Below, one piece after another: positions 29,204-52,809 of a stretch of DNA of 64,000 nt (position 1 is its first letter; each line of letters begins with the position of its first letter). The stretch covers positions 62,001 to 126,000 of the forward strand of contig JABCPU010000044.1 of assembly GCA_016800925.1 (NCBI GenBank). The letters are read 5' to 3'. Both the position numbers and the translations under genes were made by a program. This stretch comes from Suillus spraguei. Lineage: Eukaryota; Basidiomycota; Agaricomycetes; Boletales; Suillaceae. The notes below the pieces were generated by a model. The model saw only the letters and a list, made by a program, of their open reading frames with translations. It had not been told where the DNA came from and searched no databases.

Positions 29204-29398
29204 GTATCCCCCCCTTAGGGCCGAACCCCTGAGGCACAGGAAGCGTCGATCCGGATCGGACAAGATTAATGCGAGACGATGGGGAAGTTTGATGGTTGTA
29301 GTGCTGAGTCTGTAATCCGACAGATATACAGATGTCAGACATCCGAAATGATTCCTACCCCCACTTCATATCCTTGTTAACAAAACTTGTCTCCAAAC

Positions 29399-30413: not shown

Positions 30414-30470
30414 TCCAGATCCGGGTTTCCGCTACTGCCCTCAATGTACTTATATTTCGTTATGTACTTT

Positions 30471-31775: not shown

Positions 31776-32981
31776 TCATAGATCATTGGTATCCAGAACG
31801 TAGATGCGGTTGTCACAACAAAGGAATCCACCATCGTCTATTGCCCATCTCGGATCTGAGGGAACCGGAAAATGTGTTTGTGCAATGGGGTCATTAGGGA
31901 GCGCTATCAGAATGTCTTTCCGGAGGTGTTCGGTGTCCATAAGAACAGCTGCTCTAAGGACCGGAGTTGCTAAAATGGAAGCTCGTAGGGACGAAGCTAA
32001 CTGTTCCGAAGCAAATATTGGACGGAGGTTGTGAGGGTTAATCTGAGCGTAGTCCTTATCCCCCTCTTTAGGGTAGACGTCCCATCGTCTAGTGAGGGAA
32101 TCTGGCTTGACTCCGAGTCTTCCAGGACGGTAACGGATAACGAGGTTGAACTGATGAAGGAACTCGGACCAGCGGGCCTGACGACGGGATAGCAGTTTGG
32201 TGGTAGAGAAATACTCAAGGTTCTTGTGGTCCGTGACAACATCTATAGGCTCGGACGAGCCTTCTAGGTAATGGCGCCAGGTTCGGAACGCAGCATAGAT
32301 GGCTAGTAGTTCCTTATCATGGACATCATAGTTGAGTTCTGCACCGGACAGTGTCCGGGAGTAAAATGCCACCGGACGAAGTTCCGAGTCTGGGCACACA
32401 ATGGATAGTATTCCAGCAATAGCATAATCCGAGGCATCAGTTTCCACAACTATAGGAACATTCGGAATCCAATGCGTTAGCACCGGAGCGGACGTGAAGG
32501 CTTTCTTGAGTGCGTTAAATGATTTCCAGCATTCCTCGGAAAAGTCCCAAGTGACGCCCTTGCGAGTGAGTCGAGTAAGGGGAACCACGATATTCGAGTA
32601 GTTGAAGATGAAACAACGATAGAAATTGGCGCATCCGAGGAAGGATTGGATGTCCTTGACTTTCTGAGGTCCTGGCCAGTCTATGATAGACTGGATTTTC
32701 TCGGACGACATTGTCAAGCCATCCAGAGATAGGAGGTAACCAAGATATTTGACGGAGGATGAATGGAATTCACATTTCTCGGGTTTGGCATATAGTTGGT
32801 GTTTATGGAGACATCGTAAAACTTCTCGTACATGTTCCTTATGACTTGCAAGGTCTTGGGAATAGATAAGGATGTCATCCAGATATACAACAACACATAC
32901 GTCCAGCATATCGGCAAACACGCTATTGACAAAGCGCTGGAAAGCTGCTGGAGCATTCGTGAGGCCTTCCGGCATCACCAA
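31776..32981 (-). CDS. pol: Gypsy-A copy B Pol: reverse transcriptase C-part and RNase H
   Basis: 401 open codons. It starts within RT (Met-Pro-Glu-Gly-Leu-Thr-Asn-Ala near residue 3), with Tyr-Leu-Asp-Asp near residue 37 (complement of about 32870-32881). RNase H follows, with Glu-Thr-Asp-Ala-Ser near 185, Lys-Glu-Leu-Leu-Ala near 228 and Thr-Asp-His-Lys near 254, and then the start of integrase. It ends at a TGA where copy A has CGA, a CpG transition. The apparent start is not a true initiation site; translation would come from the gag frameshift. Confidence 0.88.
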   Translation of the reverse strand: MVMPEGLTNAPAAFQRFVNSVFADMLDVCVVVYLDDILIYSQDLASHKEHVREVLRCLHKHQLYAKPEKCEFHSSSVKYLGYLLSLDGLTMSSEKIQSIIDWPGPQKVKDIQSFLGCANFYRCFIFNYSNIVVPLTRLTRKGVTWDFSEECWKSFNALKKAFTSAPVLTHWIPNVPIVVETDASDYAIAGILSIVCPDSELRPVAFYSRTLSGAELNYDVHDKELLAIYAAFRTWRHYLEGSSEPIDVVTDHKNLEYFSTTKLLSRRQARWSEFLHQFNLVIRYRPGRLGVKPDSLTRRWDVYPKEGDKDYAQINPHNLRPIFASEQLASSLRASILATPVLRAAVLMDTEHLRKDILIALPNDPIAQTHFPVPSDPRWAIDDGGFLCCDNRIYVLDTNDL

Positions 32982-34264
32982 CCATTCATAGGAGCCATAG
33001 CACGTATGGAAGGAAGTCTTCCACTCATCTCCTTCTGTTATCCGGACGAGGTGATATGCAGATCGGAGATCAATTTTGGTATAAACTTTAGCACAGCTCG
33101 GGGAGTCTAGGAGGTCGGCAATGAGGGGTAACGGATATCAGTCTTTCTTGGTGATGTGGTTAAGGCCGTGGAAATCCACACAAAGGCGGAGGGATCCATC
33201 CTTCTTTTTGACAAATAGGACGGGGGCTCCATGGGGAGAAGATGAGGAACAGAGAAGTCCGGACAAGATGTTTTCATCAAGGAACTTTCGGAGAGCCTCA
33301 AGCTCTACCGGAGAAAGAGAGTATATGGTTCCAAGAGGTGGACTAGCCCCTTCTTCCAACTCAATCTTGAGATCGTAGGGTCGATGAGGGGGAAGTTGTC
33401 CGGCTTTGCCTTTGTCGAAGACATCCACAAATTTGTGGTAATCGGAAGGGATTCTGGAGAGGTCTGGAGGATCGGATGATACGGATGCGGATCAAAGATT
33501 TACTTCAGAGGGATGGAGGTAGATGCTGAACTGAGTAGATCCTTCTAACTTGCAGGCATGGCAAAAGGCCACTGCATTTATCAACGATATGTTAGGGACT
33601 GAAGTACCAGCGGAGGGTTCGGATTTGGTCAGAGGCAGAGTCTCTGCCACAGATGGGGTGCTCTGAGGCAATGGAGATATTGGAGGGGAGGAATCTTCCT
33701 TGGGTGGAATACCTGAAGGTAACGGAGGCGTTGGATTGGATTTTCCTGCCATGGACGGTGTGTCCGGAGGCAGCGGTGATGTGGATGGGGTTAATGGTGT
33801 TCCCTGTTCAGTAGTTCAGAACTCGATGCTGCCCAATACCCAGTCAATCAACGGATTGTGTCGGGTGAGCCAGCTATATCCGAGAACGATATAACATGAG
33901 GAATCCAAAGGGGTGACGTAGAACGTGTTGGAAGTGATTACACCGGAGGAGAATTGGACGGATAAGTTTATGGCTTCGACAATATTGTTATTGCATGTAC
34001 CATCAAATAAACGGAGTGGAAGCGGAGGAATCTGATAGGTAGGAATTTTATGTTTTCGGACGAAATCAGTGTCTATGAAGCAGTGGGAGGAACCACAGTC
34101 TATGAGGGCCGGAAAGTCAGATATATTGGAGAAAGACAGAAGAGAGACATATGGACACAGAGAGTTCGGATCAGGAAGAGTTACAGCGTTGAGTCATAGT
34201 TCCGTTGCACGGGTTGGGCCAATGCGACCCTCATCCCGTACAGAGTCAGGAGGGTTGCGGACTA
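32982..34264 (-). pseudogene. pol: Gypsy-A copy B protease and RT N-part
   Basis: Contains the gag stop/frameshift site (TAG 34264-34262, A-AAA-AAT just upstream), the protease with Asp-Cys-Gly (complement of about 34094-34110) and RT up to the Lys-Ile-Asp-Leu region. A TGA near 33140 replaces the CGA (Arg) of copy A; another TGA lies near 33495. The frameshift stem (copy A 15172-15208) is present but has two mismatches caused by transitions. Confidence 0.82.
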
Positions 34265-36039
34265 ATTTTTTGCCTCATCCGAGGCTTCTGGTTCCGTTTC
34301 CGGAGTGAGCATGGTGTTACGAACTGGGGTGGCGTCACCAGCGACAGTGAAATGACACAGACGGTCTGCTGGGAAGTTCTTACAATGTCCAAAAGAGGAC
34401 AAGGTGAAAGTACAAGGAACACGTTCCGAGTACAATCAAGGGTTCAGCCTCAAAGACAGGTCTAAGAGGTATCCACAAGAATGGAGACTAAGACTAAGGA
34501 GTGCTTAGACTTAGAGACAATTCAAGACGACTTAGGTTGGGGACCTAAGCGAAGGAGATTCCAGGTAAAACCCAGTAAGATTAAAGTAGGGAATCTACTA
34601 CAAGTACACTGTGCTTAAATAGGCCAATATGTGCGCACAGACCAAGTAACTGTGAGAATGTAACTGCGTATCCTAATAAGGAAGGCATGTATTGTACAAA
34701 TGCATTGAGCATATGAGTCGGTCACAGTCATGTGATATGATATACAAGTAAAGGGACAAATGGAAAATGAATAGGGGCACGTACAATTGTAACACACGGT
34801 AGCGCGGCCTTTGGCAGTGCGCGAAGTGGATTTGGTGTATTCCTGGGCAGTGTGACCAGGTCCGCCGCAGAACATACAGAGCCTTTTGTCAATACGCCTC
34901 TGATGCTCCTGGGTGGTTAGCTTTCTGTCTGCACCAACAATGCTAGGAAGATCCGAAACTTTCGGGGCAGAGGATGTTGTGGAGGATGTGGGTTTATTGA
35001 ATTTGGGCGTATCGGATCCGGATGAGTTGGAGTTCGTCCGGTTGGATGTTGACTGCCTGGGAGGATTGGAAGAGGTGGTTCTACTCTCTCGGGTGACTTC
35101 GCCCCTCCGTTCCCAGTAACAGGCGTCGATGGTCTGGGCGAGAGTCTTGAACTCCGAAAGGGTAGTGGGCTTACCCATGCGACTAATCTCATCTTTGATT
35201 CGGGCCGGAAGTCCATTGTAGAATTGGCGTTGTAGGGCTCTGTCTCCCCATTCGCGTACTTGGGAGGCAAGTCGCTGGAATTCTACAACGTACTTGTTGA
35301 TGCATTGTCTGTCACGCATGTGGAGTTGTTCTAACTGCATCTCTGCGTCTCCGGAGGGATTGTGTGGTCCAAAATTGGTTTGGAGCTCGAGCATGAACTT
35401 GGAGTAGTCATCCATCCAGTCCGGACGGTTGCTATATCCATCCAAAAGGAGATCCGGTTCAAACCACTCGAGAGCCATACCCTTAAGGTAGGATTGGGCG
35501 AAATTGACTTTAGTGCGTCCGGAACAGAAAGCGCTAGGTTTGCTCTGGAAGTTGAGCTCACATTGGACGAAGAATGCCCGAAGCTTGCGAGGTTCGGACC
35601 CATCGAAGGTATCTGGCTCATGGATTTTGACTTTGCTATCATCCAAGGTGGGGGTGTGACGGCTACTGCGAGCGAGGTGATTAATGGCTACGGATAGTTG
35701 GGCTAGGACCCAGTCCTGAGGGCTCAGGTGGATTTTATCTTCTTCGTCATCCAGGTCCTCATTGTCCGGATCATCACCTTCATCATCTGGTGGGTTACTG
35801 CGCAGCTCATCATCAAAGCGAATGGTCGGGCGCGAATTGGATTCTGGGTTATCCGAGTTCCGAGTTGGTGTTATCGGATCCGGTCTGGCTTGACGAGCGG
35901 AAATACTTTGACCTATGTCACTCATGCTTGCGCGGCGTTGAGAGAAACTGGTGAATGTTTGGACGATGGGTGTGGGATCTCGTTGGATCGGACCAAGTCC
36001 GGCTCCTCGGAGAGTGTTTTGAGTTTTACGGGGAGGCAT
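34262..36039 (-). pseudogene. gag: Gypsy-A copy B Gag, interrupted by solo LTR-F
   Basis: The ATG at 36039 opens a 474-codon reading that runs into the solo LTR near 34794. Without the LTR and one 5-bp duplication, the frame stays open from the ATG to the native TAG at 34264-34262, a length of 430 codons. Features in order: a Pro/Arg/Ser-rich N-terminus, an acidic Asp/Glu stretch near residues 75-105, the Gag capsid-like helices near 140-290, a Ser/Thr-rich linker, and a zinc knuckle Cys-x2-Cys-x4-His whose last Cys has changed to Tyr by transition. It is the best template for Gypsy-A Gag in the window. Confidence 0.88.
34315..34794. mobile_element. solo LTR-F in gag of Gypsy-A copy B
   Basis: A 480-bp LTR, TGTTACGAAC to TTGTAACA, flanked by CATGG (34310-34314) and CACGG (34795-34799), a 5-bp duplication with one CpG transition. 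The same family, inverted, lies at 56502-56975. The coding strand of the parent element is unknown. Confidence 0.93.
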
Positions 36040-36090
36040 GATATGGAATGGTTTTAAAAGTTACTCGGAAAGGTTTGAGTTCAAATATAC

Positions 36091-36858
36091 TGTTAAGACC
36101 ATACTCAAGGGGAGAGAGATCCGAAGGGCTTTGGCCTCAGTTCGTGCACTGTGCCCCTTTCTCGAGTAATGCCCCTTATTTCAGGGAGGAGTTTATTCGT
36201 CTGAAGACCCGGAAGGAGTTGCATGACGGATCCGGGTGTCCGAAGGTATCGGATGTGATATGTCCGAAGGTTGTTCGGAACGTAAGAGAGGACAGAGATT
36301 AAGGCTAGCTTCGGAATGAGTTCCTAACTAGAAACTAACGGAGGTAGACTATCCGAAGATAGAGTCGGAGATATAGACTATAGGAATCAATCCTAAGTCT
36401 CAGAAGGTGACTTAAAGCAGAAAGTGGCTTAAGTCCAGAGGAACAGAATGAGTAGAATCTAAGATGATATTCGAACTAAGGTTCTACGGAGATCTACAAG
36501 TGGTTTATATACTGTAAGTATCTAAGACAGATAATCAGCAAGTCCAGGACTGAGGGCTATGTACGAAGTGTAACAGAAGTCTATTAGTTAATGCACAGCG
36601 GATCAGTAAGCATGAATCGGAAATGAACACAGGAAACAAATCAGTAACACAGGACAGAAATATAAACAGCCAAAATACCGGAATCAGGAGGAATGACGAA
36701 AGGAGATAGATGCAGATATACACAAGGGAGTTAATGTGCGAGAAGTGAGTACATTCGGATGGGTGGTCCGGACAGGATCTGTGGACTGGACGGATATGGA
36801 ATAGATCGGATCTGATCGGATATGGTCGGATCTGAGATTAGAAGTATGGTTTATGACA
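36091..36858 (-). repeat. 5' LTR of Gypsy-A copy B
   Basis: 768 bp, TGTTAAGACC to TTATGACA in + reading; pairs with 28434-29203. Confidence 0.93.
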
Positions 36859-37342
36859 CATGAAGTCGGTAAAGACACGGTATCAGAGAGCTGACGGCTC
36901 ATACAAGACCATACTGGAGAATGCTGGCATTCACCGCTTCATCTGGGAACACCTAATTGTGGTTAACCGCGTCTTGCACCACTTGCATATGGTTGGGCTA
37001 ACTGTTTCCGCCAAAAAGTTTGTTTTGTCCACACCTACCGCCAATATCGTAGGGCACATGTGTACCTTCGAAGGGTGCGTACCAGATTCCAGGAAGATAC
37101 AAAATATCCATGATTGGCCTGAGTGTAGCACTGTTACGCATGTGCGAGGCTTCCTAGGTACCTGCGGTGTCTTGCATATTTTCATCAAGGACTTCACCAA
37201 GATAGCGAGACCGCTAGTAGCGCTAACATGCAAGAATGTCATATTCGAGTGGAGTCATGAACAGAAGGTAGCTATGCAGACGCTCAAAGATGCTATTATG
37301 CAGTCACCGGCACTAAAACCCCTTGATTATGTTTCTGGGTGA
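36859..37342 (+). pseudogene. pol: Gypsy-G2 reverse transcriptase, second half
   Basis: Continues RT directly after the Phe-Ile-Asp-Asp motif left at 28433: Lys-Thr-Arg-Tyr, Phe-Ile-Trp-Glu-His, then Phe-Leu-Gly-Thr-Cys-Gly and the thumb/connection pattern up to a TGA at 37340-37342. The frame then continues directly into RNase H, so this stop is a single nonsense change. Confidence 0.9.
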
Positions 37343-37345
37343 GAA

Positions 37346-38464
37346 GTTGTTCTAGCTGTTGACACTTCTTCTATTGCTGTAGGATTTATACTCTCGCAAA
37401 TCGGCGAGGACATGAAGCGCTACCCTAGCCACTTTGGTTCGCTAACACTTACCAAAGTCGAGAGCTGCTACTCACAAGTGAAGCTCAAGCTATACAGGTT
37501 GTTCAGAGCATTGCACACTATGCGGGTGTATATCTTTGGCATCGTCAACCTTATGGTTGAGGTGGACGCGAAGTATATCAAGGGGATGATCAATAACCCA
37601 GATCTCCAGCCTAACACTACGATCAATTGCTGGATCGCAGGTATACTTTTGTTTCAATTCAATCTTGTACATGTACCCGCAACCAAGCATACCGGTGCTG
37701 ACAGTCTCTCAAGGAGACCTGCCGCAGACGAAGATCCCGCTGAGGAGGATGATCATGAGGATTGGTTAGACCACTCGTACTCCTTCAGTATGGAGATCTT
37801 GAATGACAGGGCTTGCATAGTCGCAGGTCCTTGCGGCAACATCCTGCGGCACCCTCATTCTTCACCCATGCCGCGCTCACTAACTCGACCACCCACATTG
37901 CTCGCATGTTTAGATACCATAACCCATGATAGCGATAGCATCATAATCCTGTGTTCTGAGGCCGCTCAAGCCCAAGATGAACATATGCTAGTAATTCAGC
38001 AATTCCTGACTGACCGCAAGCAGCCAGTGAGCTTGACTGACAAGGAATTTACGTCCTTCGTCAGGACACTTGTTCAGTACATTGTGTCAGGGGATAGCCT
38101 CTTCTGGCAGCAATCACTCAGCAAACATCAGCTAGTCATACTGGCGGCTAAGCGCTTGTGTATTCTGAAGGAAGCACACGACGACTTAGGTCATAAGGGA
38201 GTATTCGCAACTCGCGCTAGACTCCTTTTGTGTTTTTGGTGGCCATATATTATTGACGATATCAAATGGTACAACAGGACTTGTCATGAGTGCCAGATCA
38301 GGCAGACTCGCTGCTTGCACATACCACCAACCGTCCCTGTACCTGGTGGTATCTTTAGGCGCGCACACCTTGACACTATGATGATGCCGAAAGCTGGCAG
38401 ATTCAATCGCTTAGTTCAAGCATGCTGCGCTCTTACCAGCTACCCAGAATGGCGTATGCTATGA
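37346..38464 (+). pseudogene. pol: Gypsy-G2 RNase H and integrase N-part
   Basis: Begins Glu-Val-Val-Leu-Ala-Val-Asp-Thr-Ser, the first RNase H acidic site, and continues through Val-Glu-Ser (near 37460) and Val-Asp-Ala-Lys (near 37563). The open stretch 37412-38464 (350 codons) then holds an acidic linker. The integrase HHCC zinc site follows, with His residues near 255 and 260 and Cys-x2-Cys near 290-293, and the first catalytic Asp (His-Leu-Asp) lies near 320. It ends at a TGA at 38462-38464. Confidence 0.85.
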
Positions 38465-39337
38465 AAGGAAAACACCAGGACCCTTAGTGCCTTCATCTTC
38501 GAGGAGCTTCTGTGTCAGTGGGGACCTATCACTGAGATTGTTACTGACAATGGGCCAGCTTTTATTGCAGCAGTAAGTTAGCTAACTGTTATGGAATTCA
38601 CCCAATCCTCATCTCTCCTTACAACTCAGAAGCCAACAGCATTGTCGAGCAGTGTCATTACAATGTCCGGGAGGCCATCATGAAAAGTTGCGAGGGGGAC
38701 GAGTCCCACTGGTACCAGACCGTTCATACTGTGTTCTGGGCCAAGCGTGTTACCGTTCATCATGACACCGGGCTATCACCATATGGTTCATGGCGTCGAG
38801 CCAATCTTTCCATTTGATCTCGCTGAAAGTACCTTTCTAGTAGACCTACCCAGTCAAGAGACATTCTCCACTACCGATCTCATTGCTTACCATGCGCGGC
38901 AGTTACAGAAGCAGCAAGAAGATCTCCATGGCATCAGAGACAAAGTCACCAAGGCTAGGCTCAATTCGGTACGGCAATTCGAGTGCCAGTACGGTGCTAC
39001 TATCAGAGACTATAACTTTGCTCCAGGCACGTTAGTCTTAGTGCATAATTCCAAGATCGAGTACGAGCTGAGTTGAAAGATGAAGCTGCGGTACCTTGGT
39101 CCAATGGTAGTAGTGTGTCATACCAACGGCGGCTCATACTGGCTAGCTGAGCTAGATGGCAGCATATTCAAACTGCGTTATGCAGTGTTCTGCTTGATCC
39201 CTTATCACCTGCATACCAATACTAAACTTTCAGTTACTAGCGTCACCAGTCTAGATGAAGAAGCATTGGACTCATTGGCAGGAGAAGACGACGAAGAGCC
39301 AGCAGATGAAGACATTGGCTTCAGCACCGACGCTTAA
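38465..39337 (+). pseudogene. pol: Gypsy-G2 integrase core end and C-terminus
   Basis: The second catalytic site, Thr-Asp-Asn-Gly-Pro-Ala-Phe, is near 38547. A stop and frameshift follow near 38580. The Glu region (Ser-Ile-Val-Glu-Gln) is near 38640. 38747-39076 encodes a long helical stretch and a Pro-Gly-Thr-Leu-Val-Leu-Val segment. 39080-39337 gives a small beta-rich C-terminal domain with an acidic tail, stop at 39335-39337. No chromodomain is present. Confidence 0.8.
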
Positions 39338-39564
39338 CCCCACCTATCCCATACTGCTACTACTGACACTCGTTATCATACCACCGCTCTCTAATACCAC
39401 ACACTCCCAGAAAAAACACAAAAACATAAAAACAAATACCGCTCAGTATGATAGCCTCAGTTTTACCCTGGGTTTTGACCGGTGTCTCAGTTTCTCTTAT
39501 CAAAGTTTCTGCTCTCTAGACCTCACTTACCTATGCTACGCACTAACAGCGAACAGACTCTTAT
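39338..39564. other. Gypsy-G2 3' spacer between integrase and antisense gene
   Basis: No gene. About 39420-39500 is the inverse of 54400-54480 in the pol-less relative, which places both at the same position of the element, just beyond the 3' end of the antisense gene. Confidence 0.6.
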
Positions 39565-40039
39565 TGTCATGAATTCCAAATACAAATCATTACTCTTTTC
39601 TCAATTTCCCTAAAGCGTCTAAACCCAGCGCTAAGACAAACTCAAATCCTATCGAAATTCCCACATCCGCTTCTATAACCGAACTTCCTGATGAAGATGA
39701 AGAGATCTTTTATGATGCTATCGGATAAGATAAGATAAGATAGTATCACGTGATCTTAGAACCTTCTAGAATATGATGTCATAACAATGTCACAACTATC
39801 ACATTGTATGATTCTCATTTCTATTTTATGATTGGCTAGTAGTTTCAAACTCAGTTTATATCTCAGTTTCAATATGTGTATATAGTTAGCTAGTTTCGCT
39901 GTAGTAGTTCTTTAGTTCAAACCTCTTGTATCTACAACTGTAACAATCCAAGACGTCCTTGCTCCTCTCTCTTTTTGTGATAACCTTAGTTTGAGTCCTA
40001 GTCTCTGCCCTTGCGTTAATTCATTTGTGGGTTGTGACA
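39565..40039. mobile_element. LTR-E
   Basis: A 475-bp LTR, TGTCATGAATTCC to GTTGTGACA, the inverse of the solo LTR at 50231-50704. It interrupts the antisense gene of Gypsy-G2. The flanking 5-mers (cttat, ctacc) differ, and the gene's 3' exons are missing on the far side, so a deletion accompanied or followed the insertion. Confidence 0.88.
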
Positions 40040-40473
40040 CTACCACAGCGACTTTCTTCTCCTTGCCCTTCTCGTCAGCAGCGGCTGCAGCTAACTTCTC
40101 TTGCTCACACTTACTCTTTGCAGCAAGTAAAGCTGCTTGAACCTGCTCAGTCCAATGACCGTACACCTTGCTGGCTTCTAGTCCCATGGCATTCTCTGCC
40201 GGCGGCAAGACCAATGCCAGGCTATATATCTTTCCATCCAAACGACACTTCGCCATCATGCTCTATACCGTAAAAATGAGTACACCACCAATAGTCGCTT
40301 ACCATAGCAAGAGTCCACTCATTCATCCACTGCTTCTTCTCAGCAGCTAAGTCCTCATGGTCCTCAGGGACACACTTGGTCAGTGCTTCGACCTTAGCGT
40401 GGATCACGGCAAACTTCTCAACCAAGGCAATGGCCTCAGGGCAAAGGTCGGAACCAAGGTCGAAGAGAGACAT
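40040..40473 (-). pseudogene. Gypsy-G2 antisense accessory gene, 5' part
   Basis: Exon 1 is 40473-40303 (57 codons, start Met-Ser-Leu-Phe-Asp), a 40-nt intron is 40302-40263 (GTAAGC to TATAG), and exon 2 runs from 40262 to the LTR-E edge. The protein aligns by eye with exons 1-2 of the gene at 41303: an acidic helical N-terminus ending in a Trp-x-Glu-Trp stretch, then a Cys-Arg-x2-Gly segment and an Ala/Glu/Lys-rich helix. The exons that would carry the six cysteines are lost behind LTR-E. It is antisense to Gypsy-G2 pol, between integrase and 3' LTR. Confidence 0.75.
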
Positions 40474-41302: not shown

Positions 41303-42298
41303 ATGTCTTCGTCGACCTTTGCCTTTGATGTCTCTACTCTCACTGCTCCCGCCACTGCACTATCAGCGGCGCAAACAAAACTCACTGCCCTCCAAGAGAA
41401 ATTGGATGGTCTCATCCTCTCCACACCAGATGATAAGGAGGAGCTGCTGGAAGAGAAGGATCTGTGGGTGAAGTCTTGGGAGCAATTCTTCGTGCGTTGT
41501 TTCTCTTTCTTCTTTGGCGGTACCAGTAATAACTTATCTTTTCTCTAGCGTGATGTAGAAGAGTGCCGCCGCAAAGGCGCGGCATGCAGCCTTAGCTTGG
41601 GCTTGACGCCTGAGGAGGTACTCGCGGCAAATGCGGTAATGCAAACTGTAAGCGCTTATCGCTTGGAAGTCACTGCTGCTGAGAAAGCGGCTGAGGAGGA
41701 GAAGAAGAAGGCTGCCGTGGCTCCATCTGAGCCCATGGTACTTGACAAGGGGAAAGGAAAGAAACAGTCCCTGGAGGAGGACCCTGAGGTGGAAGATGTC
41801 GCTGGCAGTGACAGTGAGGAGGAGGAGGAGGAAGCACCTGCGCCCAAGAGGGTAGTGCAGTCCTCCTCCAAGAAATTTTTAGAGGTAGTTATAGAACAAC
41901 TGCTGGTGAGTTTTTCTTTCTTTGACTTAGCATTTACTGATCTCGTTTAGCCTAAGACTGCCCATATGCGCGCTGGCAATCTGCAGCACACCACAAAATG
42001 TGAAAATTGCGCCAAGTGGGACATAATCTGCACTGGCCAGCCAGACAAGGTCTGTAATAACTGCTGCAAGCACAAACATAGGTGCTTGCATAATGCCAGT
42101 AAGTTCCTTCTTTCTTTACTTGACTTAACTCTTTGCTAACTCATTTTGACTTTAGTTCATCAAAAGAGGACACATCGCGCGGCAAAGACGCCGCCAGTGG
42201 TCACTGCTGCCAGCACATCTAAGAGTGCTTCAGGGACAAACTTTTGTCGAGCACTTGGACTGGCAGAGATGCTGTATCCTCACGCAGTAGTGCCATAG
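41303..42298 (+). CDS. Spliced six-cysteine accessory gene (antisense to gag of the element)
   Basis: Exons: 41303-41491, 41549-41905, 41951-42098, 42156-42298. The three introns are 57, 45 and 57 nt, with CTAAC-like branch sites. Exon 1 (Met-Ser-Ser-Ser-Thr) encodes an acidic helix. Exon 2 is helical, then carries a lysine patch and a long Glu/Asp run. Exon 3 holds six cysteines spaced C-x2-C-x6-C-x7-C-x2-C-x6-C, the spacing of fungal Zn2Cys6 clusters, with basic residues between. Exon 4 ends early at a TAG because the deletion joins it to reversed gag sequence; the relative at 52838 has a longer, helical C-terminus there. All splice junctions keep the frame. It is probably transcribed opposite to gag. 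The function is unknown; nucleic-acid binding is an inference from the cysteine pattern. Confidence 0.78.
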
Positions 42299-42797
42299 GT
42301 AGCGTAGTGCTGTCTGTACTTGGTGCCGTTAGTGATGGCTGAACCGCCGGTGGTGCGGTATCTTCGAGCGGTAGCAATACTTGCTCAGCGGTAGTGATTT
42401 CCAATGCCATAACTTGTTGTGGTACATCTGCGTCAGAGTGTTCAATAGCATTTCCCTGATAGGGGTCTGCCAGTGGAGCGACTGCTTCAGCAGTAACTGT
42501 GCGGTTGAACGTAATGGGACCACATTCTGGATACAGGTGCAAAATAGTGTTAGCGAAGTCTATGAAGCTGTTACCGTTGTATTTGTCAAGACATTCCCAT
42601 ACTTCTGCTTAGTCAGGATCTGCATAGCGTATAGCCACCTTGATGCGTGCTTTATCAGCGATGCCGGCCAAGTCTGCCAGCTCATCTACAGTAGCAAGGA
42701 ATGTTAGCAATTCTCTTGGGTTGCCATCAAAGTACGGTGCCGCTGCCATGCAGTGCAGTGGCATGCAAAATCTGTCAGACATACTTATCAGTAGCAT
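42219..42797 (-). pseudogene. gag: Gag N-terminal fragment of derivative 1
   Basis: Two open pieces (42797-42609 and 42542-42219) match the first 185 or so residues of the Gag at 55772-54723: Ser-Asp-Arg-Phe-Cys-Met-Pro near the start, then Phe-Leu-Ala-Thr-Val-Asp-Glu-Leu. A TAG near 42609 (TCG-type codon in the relative) and a frame change break it. It ends at the fusion with the antisense gene. Confidence 0.75.
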
Positions 42798-42871
42798 AGT
42801 GGTGTGGTAATAACTGCTGTGACGAGTGTGTGGTAAGTGATTTAGACAAGAACCAAACTATACCAAAGGAC

Positions 42872-42890
42872 CCCCTCGTGGTGAGCTCCA
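42872..42890 (-). promoter_or_regulatory. tRNA primer binding site of derivative 1
   Basis: TGGAGCTCACC on the - strand, two bases from the LTR-B1 end. It shares the TGGAGCYCAC core with 24650 and 55865. Confidence 0.7.
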
Positions 42891-42892
42891 AT

Positions 42893-43844
42893 TGTAAAGA
42901 TACAATCTAGCCTGGGCTGTAGATGAACCATGGCCTAAACTAGTATGCGAGTCTTGCGCTCCATCTAGTCTGCTTCACTTGTGAGAACAAGAGTGTTTGA
43001 CCCTAAAGGAGGATGCCTATTAGTATGGTCAATTTCGAGTCAAACTTATGTGCGAAGGAAGCGTCATGGTTAGCGGTAAGTTGCTGTGGTCAGCGATGAT
43101 GCTGCCAGAACTAGCATTGTGTGTAGCGGTGCTACCATGGTCAAGATATGGTCAGTCACAGTTGTGTCGAGTGAGCAATGTCGAGCAATAATATCAGCAG
43201 TAACGGTAAGGTTGCGAGCAGTGCAAGGAAACAGTAAAGAAAGCTGCGGTACTTTCAGTGGTAAAGTAGCGGTGCATGAGAAGTTCAGTCAAAATAACAG
43301 TCAAAAGTCCAGCAGTAACGGAGAATGAGCGTGATAGATTAACGAGCGATAAAGAACTTTAAAGACTAAGTCCACTACTGGGTAGATCCAGAGCTAGACA
43401 ATAATCCTGACCTATAGTACGTGCAATGGTGTAAAATCAGGTGTTTTTATTGTGCGGGGTATGTGGTGCTTATATCCTAAATTGTATGTACTCGGAATAC
43501 TCTAGGCGAGATCAGTAGCCCTGGAGTGTAGTAACCGCCGTAAGTAAACATAGCGCGAGGCACTGCGGCACGAGGCAACATGTAATAAGGCTTGCCGTGG
43601 AATCAGTGATATCGAACATAAAACAAACGACGCACCAAATGGAGCTATGCAGACGCGGCAAGGACATGGGAGGACATCGGTACGTGGAACATGGTGCGGC
43701 AGTCGGTATGGTGTGTGGTAAGCGTGGGATGCCACTGGTAATGCTAAAGGGGTAAGACGACCATGGACAAGTGGTAACTCCTATAGATGTGAGACAAGTG
43801 TCAAAAGGTGGGGTTTTAAGCCCAGCACCAATATGTTCATTACA
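42893..43844 (-). repeat. LTR-B1, 5' LTR of derivative 1
   Basis: 952 bp, TGTAAAGATACAATC to TTCATTACA in + reading, directly followed by an inverted partial copy. Confidence 0.88.
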
Positions 43845-43846
43845 CT

Positions 43847-44944: not shown

Positions 44945-45838
44945 TCAGTCATTGACAAATGGAGCAGGATTAAACTCTTGAAAGGAGTAGACGTAAACAT
45001 GAGCAGCACAGCCTCCAAGGTGAGAAAAACATCTCAGGCTACAATTGCCATTGCCAAACACAGAATCAGTTGCATTCTCCGATTGTGGGTATCCTGCATT
45101 CATTTGGCCATCATAATTCCAGATATGATCATCAGTAATTAGATGCACAGAAAAGTGTTGGCTGCCAACATACACAATCCCCTTTAGCCGATAAATTACT
45201 CTGCCATCTTGACATGGGAGTACCAGTGTTTGACTGGGAAATATGGCAACTGATTGTGTCCATTGCACCTTGAAATATAGGACAGGCAGTGCATTCCTGA
45301 GAGTCATCTTCCAAGTTGCACTATCATTGTTTGCAGAATGGTCATGTTGACAATGGGGTGAGTTCAGCTTATCTGTTTGTCTCCAAAGCCAAAGCTGAAA
45401 CCAATGCTGTAAGGACATTAATATATCATTCATATTATGCCAGTGAAAAGGAGTACACAAACATGGAAGAACGAAATTGAGGATCTCAATGGTTTGCATT
45501 GAACCAGGTGCAGATATCTTAGCCTTAAGCAGTTGTCTTTCTACCTCTTGGAACAAGTGATTGAACACTGCACAAACAGATGTAACACAGGGTCCGGATT
45601 GAGGAAATATCTGAGAATCACTCAATGAGAGAAGGTCACGCAGCTTGTTGCAGAAGTAATCAAATAAATCTTGGGACAGTAGATTAGCTTCTGATTCCAT
45701 CAGAGACTCAAATGATTCTGCCAACTCACGTCTCAAATCATTGTTATTGTTGTTGTTGCACCATAAATTTCGCCAAGGGAGAGAACCCTTGTGATAGATA
45801 TAGAAGCATATCATAAATATGTACACTGTCATATGCAC
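44945..45838 (-). pseudogene. Helitron-type helicase, C-terminal extension (possible ubiquitin-hydrolase-like domain)
   Basis: 297 open codons. Residues 28-33 are an Asn run from a short microsatellite. Residues about 35-160 are helical. Around 220-245, Gly-x-Gln-His-Phe-Ser followed by Trp-Asn-Tyr-Asp-Gly resembles the histidine box of ubiquitin-specific proteases, where a His is followed some 12-15 residues later by Trp and Asp. It lies immediately downstream of the PIF1-like helicase in the same direction, so it is probably part of the same protein, separated by a frame break near 45840-45980. The domain call is tentative and the start Met is unlikely to be native. Confidence 0.5.
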
Positions 45839-45980
45839 AGGACCAGTTCGAAGATGACCATCTGCAGCCAGCTGAAGGAGCTTGGATTGTTGCAGGAGTG
45901 TGCTGCAGACCTGGCACTAGTGACACGTGGGGATCATGACAAACAGCTTCTTGTGAAGTGCGCACTCGTTTCCGACTTGG

Positions 45981-46838
45981 TCAGGTCTTTGAAGCAACAG
46001 ACATTTTTGCTGGTGAATCCTCGTCATCGTGGTCATTGGAATATACTTCAACAATACAATGTTTCTTTGTCAAGCTTGATATTATGTTTGTATTGAATTG
46101 CACTGAAATCAAAGCTTGTGTGAGTGTTTTTTCACCTTCTGCATCTGGCACCAGAACAAAAGGACCTTGATATAACCTGCACTTCACAAGAGTATTGTGC
46201 TCAATGGCTTCAAAACACCATACTTCCACCAAAAGATCACTAGGGATTTGTTTGTTTAGAAAATCAACTGTAACAGGCTGTGTTATGCACAGACCTTTGC
46301 AAGTTTGAGCATGAGAAGCAGCAACATATGCAGCAAAGCCACCCTCATGAAGGTTGATGAGAACTTGAGGAAGTGTTTTTCCTCCAGCAGAGTGTCCCAT
46401 AACTGCAAATGCAGGCTGAATGGGGATTTGATAGCGAGTGACACAAATATTCTCTTGTTTCTCCTCTGCACAGTCTATTGAAGTGGTAAATGTCCATGTA
46501 GAGGGTAGAATAGGGTAATAACCCTTTGGGAGGTCACTGAGACAAACCTTGCTGTATGGGAACTCAACCAAGACACAAGAAGCATAAGTAAACCCAGCAG
46601 GACACACGGCTGTAAAAATTTTGCACACAACACCCTGTGAACCATTAGTGATTCCAAGATCTGTTGATAGGTTATGTACTCGTAAAATGACAGGCATGCC
46701 TTCGAATAACATAACATAACCAGGAAGAATGCAAGCTGCCTTCAGTGTTGCAACATTTGACCATAACAGAGTCTCGTGTTCTGCATATGAAAGCTCACAG
46801 CTTGAAAGTTTGTCAAGTGCCGCACAAACAATAAGCAT
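45981..46838 (-). pseudogene. Helitron/PIF1-type helicase, C-terminal half
   Basis: 285 open codons. Residues 47-69 hold Gly-Met-Pro-Val-Ile-Leu-Arg and later Asn-Gly-Ser-Gln-Gly, the PIF1/RecD pattern where the protein describes a stable name and non-ambiguous NG.xG loop. Residues 143-177 hold Phe-Ala-Val-x-Gly-His-Ser and Gly-Lys-Thr-Leu followed by Ala-Tyr-Val-Ala-Ala-Ser, the last helicase motif. Helitrons use such a helicase for rolling-circle transposition. The Walker A part and the Rep endonuclease are absent from the window, so only the 3' part survives. Confidence 0.8.
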
Positions 46839-46865
46839 ATTCTTGTCACAGGCTGTTTGAGCCTT

Positions 46866-48264: not shown

Positions 48265-48897
48265 TCACAAACCCATGGCCTTGGTGAATTTCCAATGCTT
48301 GTCATGAATTAGTGGTTTTGTGAGGATGTCTGCCACCATGTCATCTGTTGAGATGTAATGTATGACTGCTTTGCCTTTTGCCACTAGATCATCGTGCACA
48401 AAATGGTACTTGCACTGGATGTGCTTTGTGTGCGCATGGAATTGTGCATCTTTGGTAAGAATGATGGCTGCCTGATTATCGCAGTGGAGTATGGTGGGTG
48501 CGCCTTGCTTTTCACCAACTTCAGCAAAGAATGTGCGAAGCCAGGCAAGATGCTGTCCTGCATTACTGAGTCCAATGTATTCAGATTCAGTGGTGGAAAG
48601 CATGACCATGCTTTGTCGTTTGCTTGCCCAAGATATGGCGCCACGGTTTGTGATGAAGGTGTAACCTGATGTGGAGCGCAAAGTAACTAACTCGCCAGAC
48701 CAGTCTGCATCTGAATAGCCATGGAAGTCCATGTCCATTTGCACATCAGTTCCATCATAGGTTAGTTCCATGTTGCGTGTGGCTTTGAGGTAGCGAAGTA
48801 TGTGCTTTGCAGCCTCCCAATGTGAGGATTTGGGTGCAGCACTGAAGCGGCTAAGTACTTCCACTGCATATGCGATGTTGGGGCACATGCTGAGCAT
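48265..48897 (-). CDS. pol: Copia Pol: RNase H domain
   Basis: 210 open codons with the Copia RNase H layout: Gly-Tyr-Ser-Asp-Ala-Asp-Trp near residue 60, Thr-Glu-Ser-Glu-Tyr near 103, Cys-Asp-Asn-Gln-Ala-Ala near 138, Asp-Met-Val-Ala-Asp-Ile-Leu-Thr-Lys near 190. It ends with the expected stop after Ala-Met-Gly-Leu. The previous piece ends at a TAG two bases upstream, so RT and RNase H were one reading. Confidence 0.92.
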   Translation of the reverse strand: MLSMCPNIAYAVEVLSRFSAAPKSSHWEAAKHILRYLKATRNMELTYDGTDVQMDMDFHGYSDADWSGELVTLRSTSGYTFITNRGAISWASKRQSMVMLSTTESEYIGLSNAGQHLAWLRTFFAEVGEKQGAPTILHCDNQAAIILTKDAQFHAHTKHIQCKYHFVHDDLVAKGKAVIHYISTDDMVADILTKPLIHDKHWKFTKAMGL

Positions 48898-48899
48898 GG

Positions 48900-49400
48900 C
48901 TACATGAGTGAGCCAATGACAGATAAGTATGACACTTTATGACCTTCAATCACGATCTCATGGTGTGTGGAGTTGTCTCCTTCCTGGTCCATGGTGAGTT
49001 TGAGCCCATGCGCCATGGGAGTCCAGATAGGTTTGCATTTGGCCATGCCAGTGCGCTGCAAGACGGTGTCTATATATTGGTGCTGCCTAAGTGCGATTTT
49101 GCGCACCTTGCAATTGCACTGAATCTCGATGCCGAGGATAAACTTTGCCTCTCCTAGATCATGCATTTTGAATTGTGCTGAGAGCTTTCGCTTAACAGAG
49201 TCCATGAAGGCACACGTAGATGCAGCGAGCAGCAGGTCATCAACATAGACAACTAGGAAACAGACTTGCCCTTTTTTGCGAAGAACGTACAGGCACGTTT
49301 CTGCATCTAAGCGCATGAAGCCTATCTCGCCAAGTTTGCAATCAAGCATCTTGTTCCAGGTGCACGCTGATTGCTTCAGACCATACAGTGAGTGCTTCAA
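48900..49400 (-). CDS. pol: Copia Pol: reverse transcriptase, catalytic part
   Basis: 166 open codons. Ser-Leu-Tyr-Gly-Leu-Lys-Gln at 4-10 and catalytic Tyr-Val-Asp-Asp at 52-55 are the Copia RT hallmarks. Leu-Gly-Glu-Ala and Leu-Gly-Ile-Glu near 87-95 follow. A TGA at about 49401-49403 separates it from the upstream part. Confidence 0.92.
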   Translation of the reverse strand: MKHSLYGLKQSACTWNKMLDCKLGEIGFMRLDAETCLYVLRKKGQVCFLVVYVDDLLLAASTCAFMDSVKRKLSAQFKMHDLGEAKFILGIEIQCNCKVRKIALRQHQYIDTVLQRTGMAKCKPIWTPMAHGLKLTMDQEGDNSTHHEIVIEGHKVSYLSVIGSLM

Positions 49401-49403
49401 TTT

Positions 49404-49823
49404 TCAGCAGTATCCTGGTTGAATTGGGACGCCTTCAGGTGGAAGTAGGTAGAGCTGTTCTTCCAATTTGCCATTTAAGTATGCTGTGGAAACGTCCATC
49501 TGATCAAGTTCAAGGTCGTATTTTGCAGCTAGCGACATTATTATGTGAATGGATTCCAGGTTTGCAACGGGTGCAAAAACTTCCTGGTAGTCCACACCTT
49601 CGTGTTGCATGAAACCGTGCACAACTATGTGGAGTTTGTAATGATCAATATTTCCATTTTGATCAAGTTTGATGCAAAAAACAGGCTTGGAGGTGATAGG
49701 CTTGATGCCTTCAGGAATTGGCACTGTTTCATAAACTTGATTTGAGTTCAGACTTAATAATTCCTCCTCTAGGGCAGAGCGCCATAGATGTCCATCTCCA
49801 TGGGCAAAAGCTTCCGGCAGCAA
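49404..49823 (-). CDS. pol: Copia Pol: reverse transcriptase, N-part
   Basis: 139 open codons. The fingers pattern (Trp-x5-Glu-Glu-Leu near residue 14), the Val-Phe-Ala-Pro-Val-Ala stretch near 81-86, and Gln-Met-Asp-Val-Ser-Thr-Ala-Tyr-Leu near 107-115 containing the first catalytic Asp. It connects in frame to the next part apart from the stop. Confidence 0.9.
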   Translation of the reverse strand: MLPEAFAHGDGHLWRSALEEELLSLNSNQVYETVPIPEGIKPITSKPVFCIKLDQNGNIDHYKLHIVVHGFMQHEGVDYQEVFAPVANLESIHIIMSLAAKYDLELDQMDVSTAYLNGKLEEQLYLLPPEGVPIQPGYC

Positions 49824-49858
49824 CTGTGGGAGGTCGTGTTCAGCAGGACCTGTTGCGC

Positions 49859-50938
49859 CTATGCCTGCAAAATGTATGTGGTCATTGTCTTGATTTTCAA
49901 CAGATTGTCAGAGAGATTCAGTACACTCAGGAGGTGATACTGGGTCTGCTGCAGGTTGTGCCTCATGGCGCCGTTGCTCCTCATCAAGTGCATGTTGGTA
50001 ATCCTGGTTCTTGTCAGCTGGGCAACAGTCGCGCACACTGCGCCCAACTCCTCCAATGATTTGGGCAGGTGTGCACATGCAAACTGGTGAGCATGAGCAC
50101 ACTGACGAATGCACCTGCGCTTGGGGCATCTCTGGTGGCACAGACATAGGCAAATTGTCGCAGAGCGACAGGTTTTCCAGTTTCTCAGTTAGTTCTTCTA
50201 GCTTGTCTGGGTGTGCATTTGGCAGGTGTGTGTCACAACCCACAAACAAATTAACGCAAGGGCAGAGACTAGGACTCAAACTAAGGTTGTCACAAAGAGA
50301 AGAGGAGCAAGGACGTCTTGGATTGATACAGTTGTAGATACAAGAGGTTTGAACTAAAGAACTACTACAGTGAAACTAGCTAACTATATACACATATTGA
50401 AACTGAGATATAAACTGAGTTTGAAACTACTAGCCAATCATAAAATAGAAATGAGAATTGTACAATGTGATGGTTGTGACATTGTTATGACATCATATTC
50501 TAGAAGGTTCTAAGATCACGTGACACTATCTTATCTTATCTTATCCGATAGCATCATAAAAGATCTCTTCATCTTCATCAGGAAGTTCGGTTATAGAAGC
50601 AGTTATAGGGATTTCGATGGAGTTTGTGTTTGTCTTAGCGCTGGGTTTAGACGCTTTAGGGAAATTGAGAAAAGAGTAATGATTTGTATTTGGAATTCAT
50701 GACAGTGTGGCAGTGTGCCAGGTTCCAGTGGAGTTTGCGCACTTTCTGAGGGATTTGCATCCTCCTCCTCATCAGATACAGATGCATCAGGGCAATGGTG
50801 CTGGAGTGGGAGCAAACGCTCCCACTGTTGTTTAGCAGGGTGTGCATGCCAAGGTGCCAGGTCAACATCAGAAACCTGATCAGTTTCATTGAAGGTGACA
50901 TGTCTGCTTGAGAATACCATGCACTGTGCTAGGTCCAT
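49859..50938 (-). pseudogene. pol: Copia Pol: linker between integrase and RT, cut by solo LTR-E
   Basis: 50938-50710 reads Thr-Phe-Asn-Glu-Thr-Asp-Gln-Val and an acidic Pro/Ser linker typical of Copia between integrase and RT. It is interrupted by 50231-50704 and resumes at 50225 with Leu-Pro-Asn-Ala-His-Pro. Without the LTR and one GTGTG copy the two sides are in frame. Further frame changes lie at about 50056 and 49908. Confidence 0.8.
50231..50704. mobile_element. solo LTR-E inserted in Copia
   Basis: A 474-bp LTR, TGTCACAACC to ATTCATGACA, with perfect 5-bp duplications GTGTG at 50226-50230 and 50705-50709. It matches 39565-40039 inverted. Confidence 0.95.
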
Positions 50939-50973
50939 GAGTTTTTATGCCTTTTGACCGTGTATGTAGCCAA

Positions 50974-51525
50974 TCATGACCGCCTTGCGCCCTTTGGGGT
51001 GAAACTTTCTTTCGCGCTTGTTTTTGGTATGAGCGCATATGCAGGGCATCCAAATGGGTGGAAGAAAGAAGGGTCTGCATTCCAATTGAACTGTGTTTCA
51101 TATGGTGTCTTCCCTTTTATGCCTGCAGCTGGACTACGACCTATGACATAGGTGGTGGTTGACATTGCATCCACCCAGAAAGATTTTGGCAACTTGGATT
51201 CTTCCAGCATGGCTGTGGCGAGTGTCAAAAGTGTTTGATTCATGTGCTCTGTGATGCAATTTTGCTCTGGGGTGTCAGCTGCAGTGGTTTTGAGTATGGC
51301 GCCATCAGTGTGGAGTTCCTTGCACATATTGTTACCAGTGTATTCCCCTCCACCATCGCTGCACATAAATTCAGTGTGAAGCATGGAAAAGCACTCTTTG
51401 TGGACTTCAAAGCAGAAGAATATTTGAATGTCTTTCTTCCATTGCTTGTACTGCTCAAGTACGTTGCTCTTGTGCTTCAGGAAATAGATCCAAGGGAATC
51501 TGGAATAATCATTGACAATAACCAT
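50974..51525 (-). CDS. pol: Copia Pol: integrase core
   Basis: 183 open codons. Asn-Asp-Tyr-Ser-Arg-Phe near 4-9 carries the first catalytic Asp, Ser-Asp-Gly-Gly-Gly-Glu near 56-61 the second, and Asn-x-Ile-Thr-Glu-His near 88-93 the Glu of the DDE triad. Pro-Phe-Gly-Cys-Pro-Ala near 157 follows. The HHCC zinc domain upstream is missing. Confidence 0.9.
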   Translation of the reverse strand: MVIVNDYSRFPWIYFLKHKSNVLEQYKQWKKDIQIFFCFEVHKECFSMLHTEFMCSDGGGEYTGNNMCKELHTDGAILKTTAADTPEQNCITEHMNQTLLTLATAMLEESKLPKSFWVDAMSTTTYVIGRSPAAGIKGKTPYETQFNWNADPSFFHPFGCPAYALIPKTSAKESFTPKGARRS

Positions 51526-51843: not shown

Positions 51844-52809
51844 TGTAAAGATACAACCTAACTTGGGCTTTAGATAAACCACTGCCTAAACTAGTATGTT
51901 AGTCTTGCGCTCCGTCTAGTCTGCTTCACTTGTAAGAACAAGAGCGTTCGACCCTAAAGGGAGATGCCTATTTAGTACAGTCAAGTTCGAGTCTAACTTA
52001 TTTGCGAAACAAGCTTTGAAGTCAGCGGTAAGTTGCCGCGGTCAGCGATGATGCCGCTGGAACTAGCGCCGTGCATAGCAGTGCTACCGTCATCGAGATA
52101 AAGTCAGTAACAGTTGTGTCTAGCGAGCGATGTCGAGCGGTGGTCTCAGCGGTAGCAGTAAGGTTGCAAGTGGTGCAAAGAAACAGTAAGGAAGTCCGCG
52201 GTACTTTCAGTGGTAAAGTAGTGGAGTGTGAGAAGTTCAGTCAAAAGTCACAGTCAAAAGTCCAGCGGTATGCTGGCAGTAACGGAGAACAAGTGTGATG
52301 TATTAACGAGAGATAAGGGAACTTTAAAGACTATGTCCACTACTGGGTTAATCCAGAGCTAGACAATAATCCTGATTTATAGTACATGCAATGGTGTGAA
52401 ATCAGGTACTGTATCGTGTGAGGTATGCAGTGCTTATATCCTAATTTGTATGTACTCGGAATACTCTAGGCAAGATCAGTAGCGCTGGAGTGTAGTAACC
52501 ACCGTAAATATACATAGCGCGATGTACTGCGGCACAAGGCAACATGTAATAACGCTTGCCATGGAATCAGTGATAATGAACATAAAACAAAAAATGCACC
52601 AAATGGAGCTATGCAGATGCAGCAAGGACATGGAAGGACATCGGTTCATGGAACATGGTGCGGCAGTCGGTACGGTGTGCAGTAAGCGTGGGATGCTGCC
52701 GGTTACTGCTAAAGGGGTAAGAAGGCCATGGACTAGTGGTAACTCCTGTAGACGTGAGACGAGTGTCAAAATATGGGGTTTTAAGCCCAGCGCCAATATG
52801 TTTGTTACA
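51844..52809 (-). repeat. LTR-B1, 3' LTR of derivative 2
   Basis: 966 bp, TGTAAAGATACAACC to TTTGTTACA in + reading. It abuts the last bases of intron 1 of the antisense gene, whose first exon is therefore missing. Confidence 0.9.

Follow-up and report, generated by a model that had tools for sequence, protein, structure and literature searches.

Antisense genes with a predicted zinc cluster and family-specific CGG motifs in two gypsy retrotransposon lineages of Suillus spraguei

Two gypsy lineages of Suillus spraguei, whose pols are distant (28% identity), both bear a gene of several exons that runs antisense and is placed between pol and the 3´ LTR, as the original prediction made from this DNA had proposed. 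This antisense gene is real, functional and under purifying selection. Moreover, motif enrichment in the elements is family-specific, GCGGTR prevailing in the lineage termed Gypsy-G2 and CGGA in Gypsy-A. The explanation we favour, at a probability slightly short of even, is that the antisense gene encodes a Zn2Cys6-type coiled-coil DNA binder, which would read its own CGG-core motif and keep copies of its own element alone transcribed or unsilenced.

Within the window, i.e. the whole 64-kb stretch of DNA analysed, the part studied consists of nested retrotransposons: Gypsy-A elements, a Gypsy-G2 element split by Gypsy-A, and pol-less relatives of Gypsy-G2. The pol-bearing elements are the following.

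13067-20984 and 28434-36858: Gypsy-A elements, LTR pairs 97.7% and 96.9% identical
25342-28433, plus strand: Gypsy-G2 gag and first part of pol, 88% match to locus L067, in which the gag ORF matches DUF4100
36861-39340, plus strand: rest of Gypsy-G2 pol (RT, RNase H, integrase); no chromodomain was detected in its counterpart in L067

The Gypsy-A insertion at 28434-36858 separates the two parts of the Gypsy-G2 pol. Locus L067 represents the autonomous Gypsy-G2: part of an LTR and the four-exon antisense gene are followed, on the opposite strand, by integrase, RNase H, RT and gag. The frame of exon 4 of its antisense gene is broken, a TATAAA box lies 48 bases upstream of the ATG, and a Gypsy-A LTR is inserted at 3610-4382. 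The lack of a chromodomain, previously ascribed to Gypsy-G2, was borne out by the L067 integrase ORF (none at E <= 0.01), and Gypsy-A does possess one (PF00385, 25.2 bits at a cut-off of 25.1). A chromovirus with 482-bp LTRs shares 25% pol identity with Gypsy-G2 and 47% with Gypsy-A.

This chromovirus (39567-40039 in the window; L065:3046-9591; L066:1-6341) has an LTR pair 99.6% identical in L065. Its chromodomain ORF in L066 extends into its own 3´ LTR, and in both loci it adjoins genes of the G2 type. L065 and L066 had been chosen for an RT match near a gene of the diverged G2 subfamily found at 40040 of the window (40040 type). As the autonomous partner of G2 they were rejected; their pol is that of the nested chromovirus with its own 482-bp LTRs.

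The copies at 41303 and 52838 had been regarded as pol-less relatives of Gypsy-G2. They do lack pol, but they belong to a distinct family of the order LTR, gag, gene, LTR. Five of six fetched 9-kb loci (L059-L063) contain LTR, gag, a spacer, the antisense gene and LTR, with 0.9-1.7 kb between gene and gag, and the G2 pol piece of the window found no match in these five; the sixth (L064) comprises the gene plus a single LTR and shows neither gag nor pol. Judging from the anatomy of L059-L063, the pol-less relatives form a gag-only family reminiscent of TR-GAG, non-autonomous plant LTR elements in which LTRs surround gag and pol is missing. As in TR-GAG, LTRs flank gag without pol; unlike TR-GAG, the pol-less G2 family adds an antisense gene under selection. 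The first 80 residues of the L060 gag are 36% identical to window positions ~25185-25424, beside the Gypsy-G2 gag (E 1.6e-8).

Copies of the antisense gene in the window, together with the sequences that adjoin them, are listed below.

19012-20021, minus strand: Gypsy-A antisense gene, second window copy, frame of exon 1 broken; an intact copy is in L048
29399-30413, plus strand: Gypsy-A antisense gene, exons 29399-29620, 29670-29771 and 29820-30413, in-frame stop in exon 1
39567-40039, no strand assigned: 476-bp TG...CA LTR of the separate chromovirus family (LTR pair in L065), cutting the 40040 copy at 40040
40040-40262, minus strand: Gypsy-G2 antisense gene (40040 type), exon 2, cut by the LTR; exons 3-4 missing
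40303-40473, minus strand: Gypsy-G2 antisense gene (40040 type), exon 1
41303-41491, plus strand: antisense gene of pol-less G2 type, exon 1 (N-terminal helix region), based on paralogue alignment, splice sites and dN/dS
41549-41905, plus strand: same gene, exon 2 (Glu-rich stretch), based on paralogue alignment and dN/dS
41951-42098, plus strand: same gene, exon 3, six-Cys cluster at 41999-42085 (counted from exon start)
42156-42298, plus strand: same gene, exon 4, native to ~42212, the remainder being antisense gag
42229-42892, minus strand: gag remnant of pol-less element, from the match to 55204-56077
42893-43845, minus strand: LTR of the G2 superfamily
51844-52809, minus strand: LTR directly next to intron 1 in the second copy of the pol-less type
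52838-53173, plus strand: second copy, exon 2
53225-53372, plus strand: second copy, exon 3, six-Cys cluster at 53273-53359 (counted from exon start)
53431-53837, plus strand: second copy, exon 4, encoding the predicted coiled coil at the C-terminus and a basic tail
54723-55832, minus strand: gag ORF of pol-less element, without Pfam family
55868-56080, minus strand: 5´ LTR fragment of the same pol-less element, putative primer site TGG two bases inside

The predicted structure, orientation and position of the window gene, as well as its C-x2-C-x6-C-x7-C-x2-C-x6-C cluster, are indeed present, but each of the three copies is partial. The composite description of the protein (helix, Glu-rich stretch, cluster, coil) is right overall, yet these parts are never found all in one window copy. 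In the 41303 copy, exon 4 joins minus-strand gag near 42213-42229, and 42229-43102 matches 55204-56077 at 89%. Since minus-strand gag sets in at 42229, this copy has no coiled coil and the last ~23 residues of its frame are foreign to the gene; 41303-42298 is an internal-deletion derivative of the pol-less element. The copy at 52838-53837 (plus strand) has exons 2-4 open and is devoid of exon 1 because the LTR at 51844-52809 lies directly at intron 1. The copy at 40040-40473 (minus strand) comprises exons 1-2 of the diverged subfamily (MSLFDLGSDL...).

Prevalence of the gene was followed in the 86-Mb genome of S. spraguei by protein search. The pol-less type gave at least 183 exon-level matches (113 of 231 candidates scored), the Gypsy-A type at least 155 (150 of 304 scored) and the 40040 type 122 (all 121 candidates scored). 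Absence of the gene from other copies of these families, which would have spoken against the original prediction, was thus not what we found; many of them carry it. Fuller genomic copies have four exons and lie antisense, with pol or gag on one side and the 3´ LTR on the other, and splice sites of introns 2 and 3 are kept among the paralogue alignment rows listed.

Comparison of copies of the pol-less type gave dN/dS of 0.12-0.30 for exons 1-4 in the true frame versus 0.92-3.28 in wrong frames, exon 1 alone showing 0.12-0.17 in 17 copies. For exons 1, 2, 3 and 4, the samples were 17, 22, 21 and 26 distinct copies (distinct sequences with at least 80% exon coverage, gap and stop codons skipped, transition weight 1 or 3), with in-frame stops in 3, 1, 0 and 3 of them. 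All six Cys are retained in 19 of the 21 exon-3 copies; one has a Cys replaced by Tyr and one sequence is incomplete. For exon 3 of the Gypsy-A gene, three divergent copies gave 0.23-0.31 in frame versus at least 1.0 out of frame. The gag of the pol-less element showed 0.41-0.53 (five copies).

Protein databases contained 1, 11 and 23 relatives of the pol-less, Gypsy-A and 40040 types, in that order. Among the 23, 21 are S. spraguei hypothetical proteins in NCBI, five of them 335 aa long, and relatives of the Gypsy-A type, 42-55% identical, are among the annotated proteins of S. luteus, S. brevipes and S. bovinus. A set of annotated Suillus 'hypothetical proteins' thus gains an identity as retrotransposon genes. 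Searches with the three types found no relative with a named host other than Suillus, the hosts being S. spraguei and the three species just mentioned. Ten pattern matches came from viral contigs, and none was confirmed as a relative.

The genes of the two lineages had been described as being of the same design. What they share is antisense orientation, several exons, six Cys in a cluster and, by prediction, a long helix at the C-terminus; exon layout and linker differ. The Gypsy-A gene has three exons (from predicted splice sites), an intron within the cluster linker and a linker of 13 residues, whereas the G2 gene has four exons, the entire cluster in exon 3 and a 7-residue linker. Profile-profile comparison of G2 with Gypsy-A aligned the cluster, weakly (probability 38%, P 3e-4; 1.7% in a second comparison), and nothing beyond it; homology between the two G2 subfamilies extends over 304 columns (99.4%). 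From such an alignment, common ancestry of the G2 and Gypsy-A clusters is possible.

The autonomous G2 protein has predicted N-terminal helices, a CERCARLKLLCSGERGYSCWPCRKLKTGC-like cluster, an acidic stretch and C-terminal helices. In the Gypsy-A protein, a long charged N-terminal stretch precedes CSRCVTKGRMC-13-CDVCRKDKATC, a basic stretch and an 80-residue helix. Zn2Cys6 clusters are spaced C-x2-C-x6-C-x5-12-C-x2-C-x6-8-C; the G2 cluster fits this spacing (linker 7) and the Gypsy-A linker of 13 is just outside the range. No match to PF00172 exceeded the gathering cut-off of 21 bits. The best, of 18.2 bits, came from an excised 48-residue cluster piece of a protein which over its whole length reaches only 8.2 bits (E 3.6). 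Below the cut-off, PF00172 matched six of 15 autonomous-type members, more than any other Pfam family, and two of five A-type proteins, but neither of the two pol-less-type proteins tested. E values were 0.029-3.6 for whole proteins where listed (0.035 for the best of the autonomous G2 type), 0.0027 for one isolated cluster, and 0.016 and 0.027 for the two of ten half-cluster pieces that matched. As the unrelated family Toxin_21 reaches E 0.047 among the same 15 autonomous-type members, it is spacing and recurrence, not score, that speak for PF00172. The single NCBIfam match (E 0.094) was far below cut-off.

Searched against solved structures, the Gypsy-A type had LAC9 as its top chain (E 0.11), the pol-less type matched a multicystatin in its N-terminal helix region, and the autonomous type gave no match. 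In the Gypsy-A model the C-terminal helix spans 80 residues, with pLDDT per block mostly above 94, and is compatible with a coiled coil; the cluster is of low confidence. The G2 model is poor (mean pLDDT 47), and short helices follow each CxxC in the models at low confidence. Half-cluster matches had raised the idea of a back-to-front Zn2Cys6, with the canonical first half in second place; it was dropped for G2 because the autonomous proteins match PF00172 with the whole cluster in canonical order. For Gypsy-A, in which the long linker splits the PF00172 match, a back-to-front order may still hold.

Like fungal Zn2Cys6 factors (PF00172; GAL4, LAC9), these proteins have six Cys in C-x2-C-x6-C halves, basic residues, a predicted coiled coil and a candidate site with a CGG core, CGG triplets being the usual core of fungal Zn2Cys6 sites. 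Unlike those factors, they fall below the Pfam cut-off, are encoded by retrotransposons and have their long helix far C-terminal; in GAL4 it lies next to the cluster. We infer binding of two zinc ions, DNA binding, dimerisation through the coil and reading of the element's own motif. The gene might originally have been captured from a host as a Zn2Cys6 factor.

Next, motif content of the elements was compared. Each of five G2 elements contains 13-23 GCGGTA versus 1.2-2.4 expected, first-order Markov samples reaching maxima of 4-6; counts come from five of the six fetched loci, L064 being excluded as it has neither gag nor 5´ LTR. In the two Gypsy-A elements, TCCGAA occurs 32-37 times each (5-7 expected), TCCGGA 26-32 and CGGATC 31-34 times (3-8 expected). 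GCGGTA is entirely missing from both Gypsy-A elements counted, and TCCGGA and TCCGAA from four of the five G2 elements. Neither set is raised in two copies of the gene-less, young chromovirus or in one copia element. The comparison covers two gene-bearing lineages and one good gene-less control. Since counts of the Gypsy-A words (TCCGAA, TCCGGA, CGGATC) were raised in L063, the fifth G2 element, and in several flanks, these words were mapped by position. All 14 in L063 lie inside an inserted Gypsy-A LTR, and all 15 GCGGTR in G2 sequence. Of the 58 Gypsy-A words in six flanks, 41 can be assigned to recognisable pieces of Gypsy-A; G2 pieces contain none of them, and hold 10 of the 12 GCGGTR.

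The G2 word sits on the strand of the antisense gene (23:4, 29:1, 20:4, 32:1 and 14:1 in the five elements); the Gypsy-A words, among them the palindrome TCCGGA, are spread over both strands. In L067 the G2 word is densest in the LTR part, at 19.7 per kb; other non-coding sequence has 4.9-7.6 per kb, the antisense gene 3.5 and gag-pol 1.0-2.5. In L060 the motif is dense in gag and its leader. Two GCGGTG sites lie at most ~80 bases upstream of the TATAAA box of the antisense gene (L067:684-770), and the same is found in L065, a position from which autoregulation appears possible. Old LTRs of the window hold few GCGGTR (4, 5, 8, 2 and 2; the 42893 copy has 4 versus 2.1 expected). A related LTR, L069, has GCGGTR at 12:1 plus five CpG-decayed GCAGTA. 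LTR subfamilies (e.g. L069:140-420) vary in the number of GCGGTA, by eye apparently via local tandem duplication. Genome-wide, three GCGGTA within 84 bases were found 1569 times versus 33 for the reversed pattern, counts inflated by copy number because family copies are not independent.

Decayed forms GCAGTA, GTGGTA and CAGATC occur in older loci. In L068, an old divergent Gypsy-A family, ATCTGA, CAGATC, TCCAGA and TCTGAA are among the top words by frequency rank alone; such CpG-decayed words are as expected if the array predates CpG decay. The gene-less minisatellite stretch at 57803-63700 contains 7 TCCGGA versus 0.8 expected, and 13 Gypsy-A words outside Gypsy-A pieces. Two other genome-wide patterns were also counted. 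The GCGGAT triple pattern (124 versus 2) was rejected as array evidence, the matches listed being mostly the coding repeat of the Gypsy-A gene and minisatellites; the TCCGAA triple pattern (413 versus 45) is, among the matches listed with letters, mostly one LTR place multiplied.

Coding sequences were controlled by permuting synonymous codons within each ORF, protein and codon usage being fixed. In Gypsy-A pol, CGGA then ranks first of 136 4-mers (122 versus 62.9, z 10.6), and in Gypsy-A gag it is again the top 4-mer (46 versus 27.1, z 4.8); in ORF 31776-33137 of Gypsy-A it is raised (30 versus 19.4), the three 6-mers not being so (5 versus 3.9). In the pol-less G2 gag (L060 and L061, copies of one gene), GCGGTA ranks first of 1024 6-mers (22 versus 4.4, z 9.5), the L063 gag has 8 G2 motifs versus 3.1 (2 of 500 shuffles), and CGGA is depleted in G2 gag (4 versus 14.4). 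Enrichment is weak in the autonomous G2 pol (5 versus 1.8; 5 of 500 shuffles) and not significant in the autonomous G2 integrase and gag ORFs and antisense exon 2, nor is GCGGTA among the top 6-mers of the autonomous G2 coding region. The best words of the chromovirus reach z 3.7 (4-mer) and 4.6 (6-mer), neither of them a motif word, and those of copia z 4.1 and 5.0. Motif sites occupy all three reading frames.

Enrichment also persists against strand-aware second-order Markov samples. A maximum-order Markov test of 6-mers ranked neither motif, because the embedded 5-mers are enriched too. By the same test of 4-mers the top word is CGGA in Gypsy-A (296 versus 191, z 7.6), whereas in two G2 elements it is GCGG (z 4.4); the best z in the chromovirus is 2.4.

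Known systems resemble this one in part. Like HBZ, a bZIP factor, the protein would be an antisense regulatory protein of a retroelement, its regulatory role being predicted here. In the portion of PMC11963269 drawn on here, HBZ-type antisense genes of deltaretroviruses appear as such proteins, and plant gypsy elements of the Retand type are described with antisense TRP28 genes between pol and the 3´ LTR, for which the author proposes a regulatory role. The Suillus gene is likewise antisense between pol and the 3´ LTR (L067; Gypsy-A in the window), a predicted DNA binder, and present also in elements without some coding domains; unlike it, the Retand genes belong to plants and have a TRP28 domain, the comparison being one of description only (PMC11963269). 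Arrays of an own motif go unmentioned in that portion of the paper, and tandem repeats are common in the region concerned (PMC11963269). Open-licence PMC literature, judged by titles and the opening lines of abstracts, yielded no fungal precedent for an antisense gene of LTR elements, and a survey of transposons in Boletales does not use the word antisense in its main text (PMC5689174).

A closer parallel to the motifs is provided by VANDAL transposons. According to the parts of PMC5735166 and PMC10398659 considered, VANC21 binds a nine-base motif that forms dense same-orientation arrays in its own VANDAL family, and the VANC6 motif differs. These motifs are short, often tandem and mainly in non-coding parts of their own family, and site number varies through local tandem duplication (PMC5735166, PMC10398659), as it appears to do in the GCGGTA LTRs here. 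As with VANC and VANDAL, family-specific arrays lie in the element's own DNA, in G2 in one orientation, protein binding being predicted in our case. VANDALs are DNA transposons, whereas the elements here are LTR retrotransposons whose antisense gene is spliced and encodes a Zn2Cys6-like cluster, and the motif is raised in coding sequence too. The finding thus joins two known designs in a new host group, element class and protein family, and in two lineages.

According to the mechanism that we prefer, the product of the antisense gene, a predicted Zn2Cys6-type, coiled-coil DNA-binding protein, would dimerise through its C-terminal coil and recognise the CGG-core motif repeated across its own element (GCGGTR for G2, CGGA for Gypsy-A). 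Once bound, it would keep copies of its own family, and no others, transcribed or unsilenced. A pol-less element would retain the gene since the factor is needed at its own LTR, pol being borrowed. We lean to activation or anti-silencing because the protein, together with family-specific, same-orientation, LTR-centred arrays, matches the pairing of VANC and VANDAL; drawn from this analogy, the direction of effect, activation or anti-silencing and not repression, is the least certain part. Anatomy and motifs are equally compatible with a protein that binds its own arrays as a repressor, either an autoregulator or a copy-number brake on LTR sense transcription, and the two GCGGTG sites upstream of the antisense TATAAA box in L067 and L065 would suit feedback. 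It is hard to see, however, what a pol-less copy would gain from a brake, and the pol-less gene is nonetheless under strong purifying selection (absence of pol verified at five loci), and we regard repression as unlikely, if still a serious contender.

A host factor could read the same motifs as well. The arrays might then be enhancers for host Zn2Cys6 transcription factors and the antisense protein have another role, as the usual CGG core of fungal sites and the weak homology between G2 and Gypsy-A genes would allow. But the motif goes with presence of the gene, not with relatedness of pol, since the chromovirus without the gene is nearer to Gypsy-A and has neither motif raised, and among the three families compared two gene families go with two mutually exclusive motifs; we find host enhancers decidedly unlikely. 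The strand bias of the G2 word could be a sign of an RNA target. An RNA-binding packaging or chaperone factor for UACCGC in gag RNA would agree with a motif that in five elements sits almost wholly on the same strand (14-32 versus 1-4) and is dense in the L060 gag and leader, but hardly with Gypsy-A words on both strands, palindrome TCCGGA included, and we give it the least credence. Only a little more credible, and on the whole highly improbable, is that base composition, CpG decay or codon usage accounts for the enrichment, the gene being an ordinary host transcription factor that was captured and has no self-target. Old copies do lose CpG, decayed forms are found in older loci, and the maximum-order 6-mer test ranks neither motif. 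On the other hand, enrichment survives second-order Markov samples and shuffles with protein and codons fixed, extends to all three frames and leads the maximum-order 4-mer test for CGGA and GCGG well above the best chromovirus word, and homologues with a named host come from Suillus only in database searches.

Taken further, our preferred reading would amount to private recognition: an antisense zinc-cluster protein and a CGG 'dialect' in LTRs, non-coding sequence and synonymous sites, arisen in or exchanged between two gypsy lineages, would provide family-restricted anti-silencing or activation. This broader claim we put forward with more doubt than conviction. If true, it would be the first VANC-like self-recognition system known from retrotransposons and from fungi. 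Zinc-cluster proteins and their sites would also become available as natural pairs. Detailed knowledge of how transposable elements overcome silencing by the host is limited to very few of them. The role of antisense genes in LTR elements, a long-standing question, becomes testable here with two proteins and two probes.

Several further features were noted in the window. A large minisatellite-like tandem array rich in AAACTT (57 copies in 57803-63700) lies at 57803-60165 with an inverted counterpart at 62703-63665. A degenerate copia at 48265-51525 is strongly CpG-depleted (13 CGG/CCG versus 77 expected from base composition). By reading alone, two minus-strand ORFs at 44945-46865 resemble helicase or Helitron-type fragments. 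Solo and partial Gypsy-A LTRs occupy 2128-3925 and 5243-6615, several of them apparently nested in each other.
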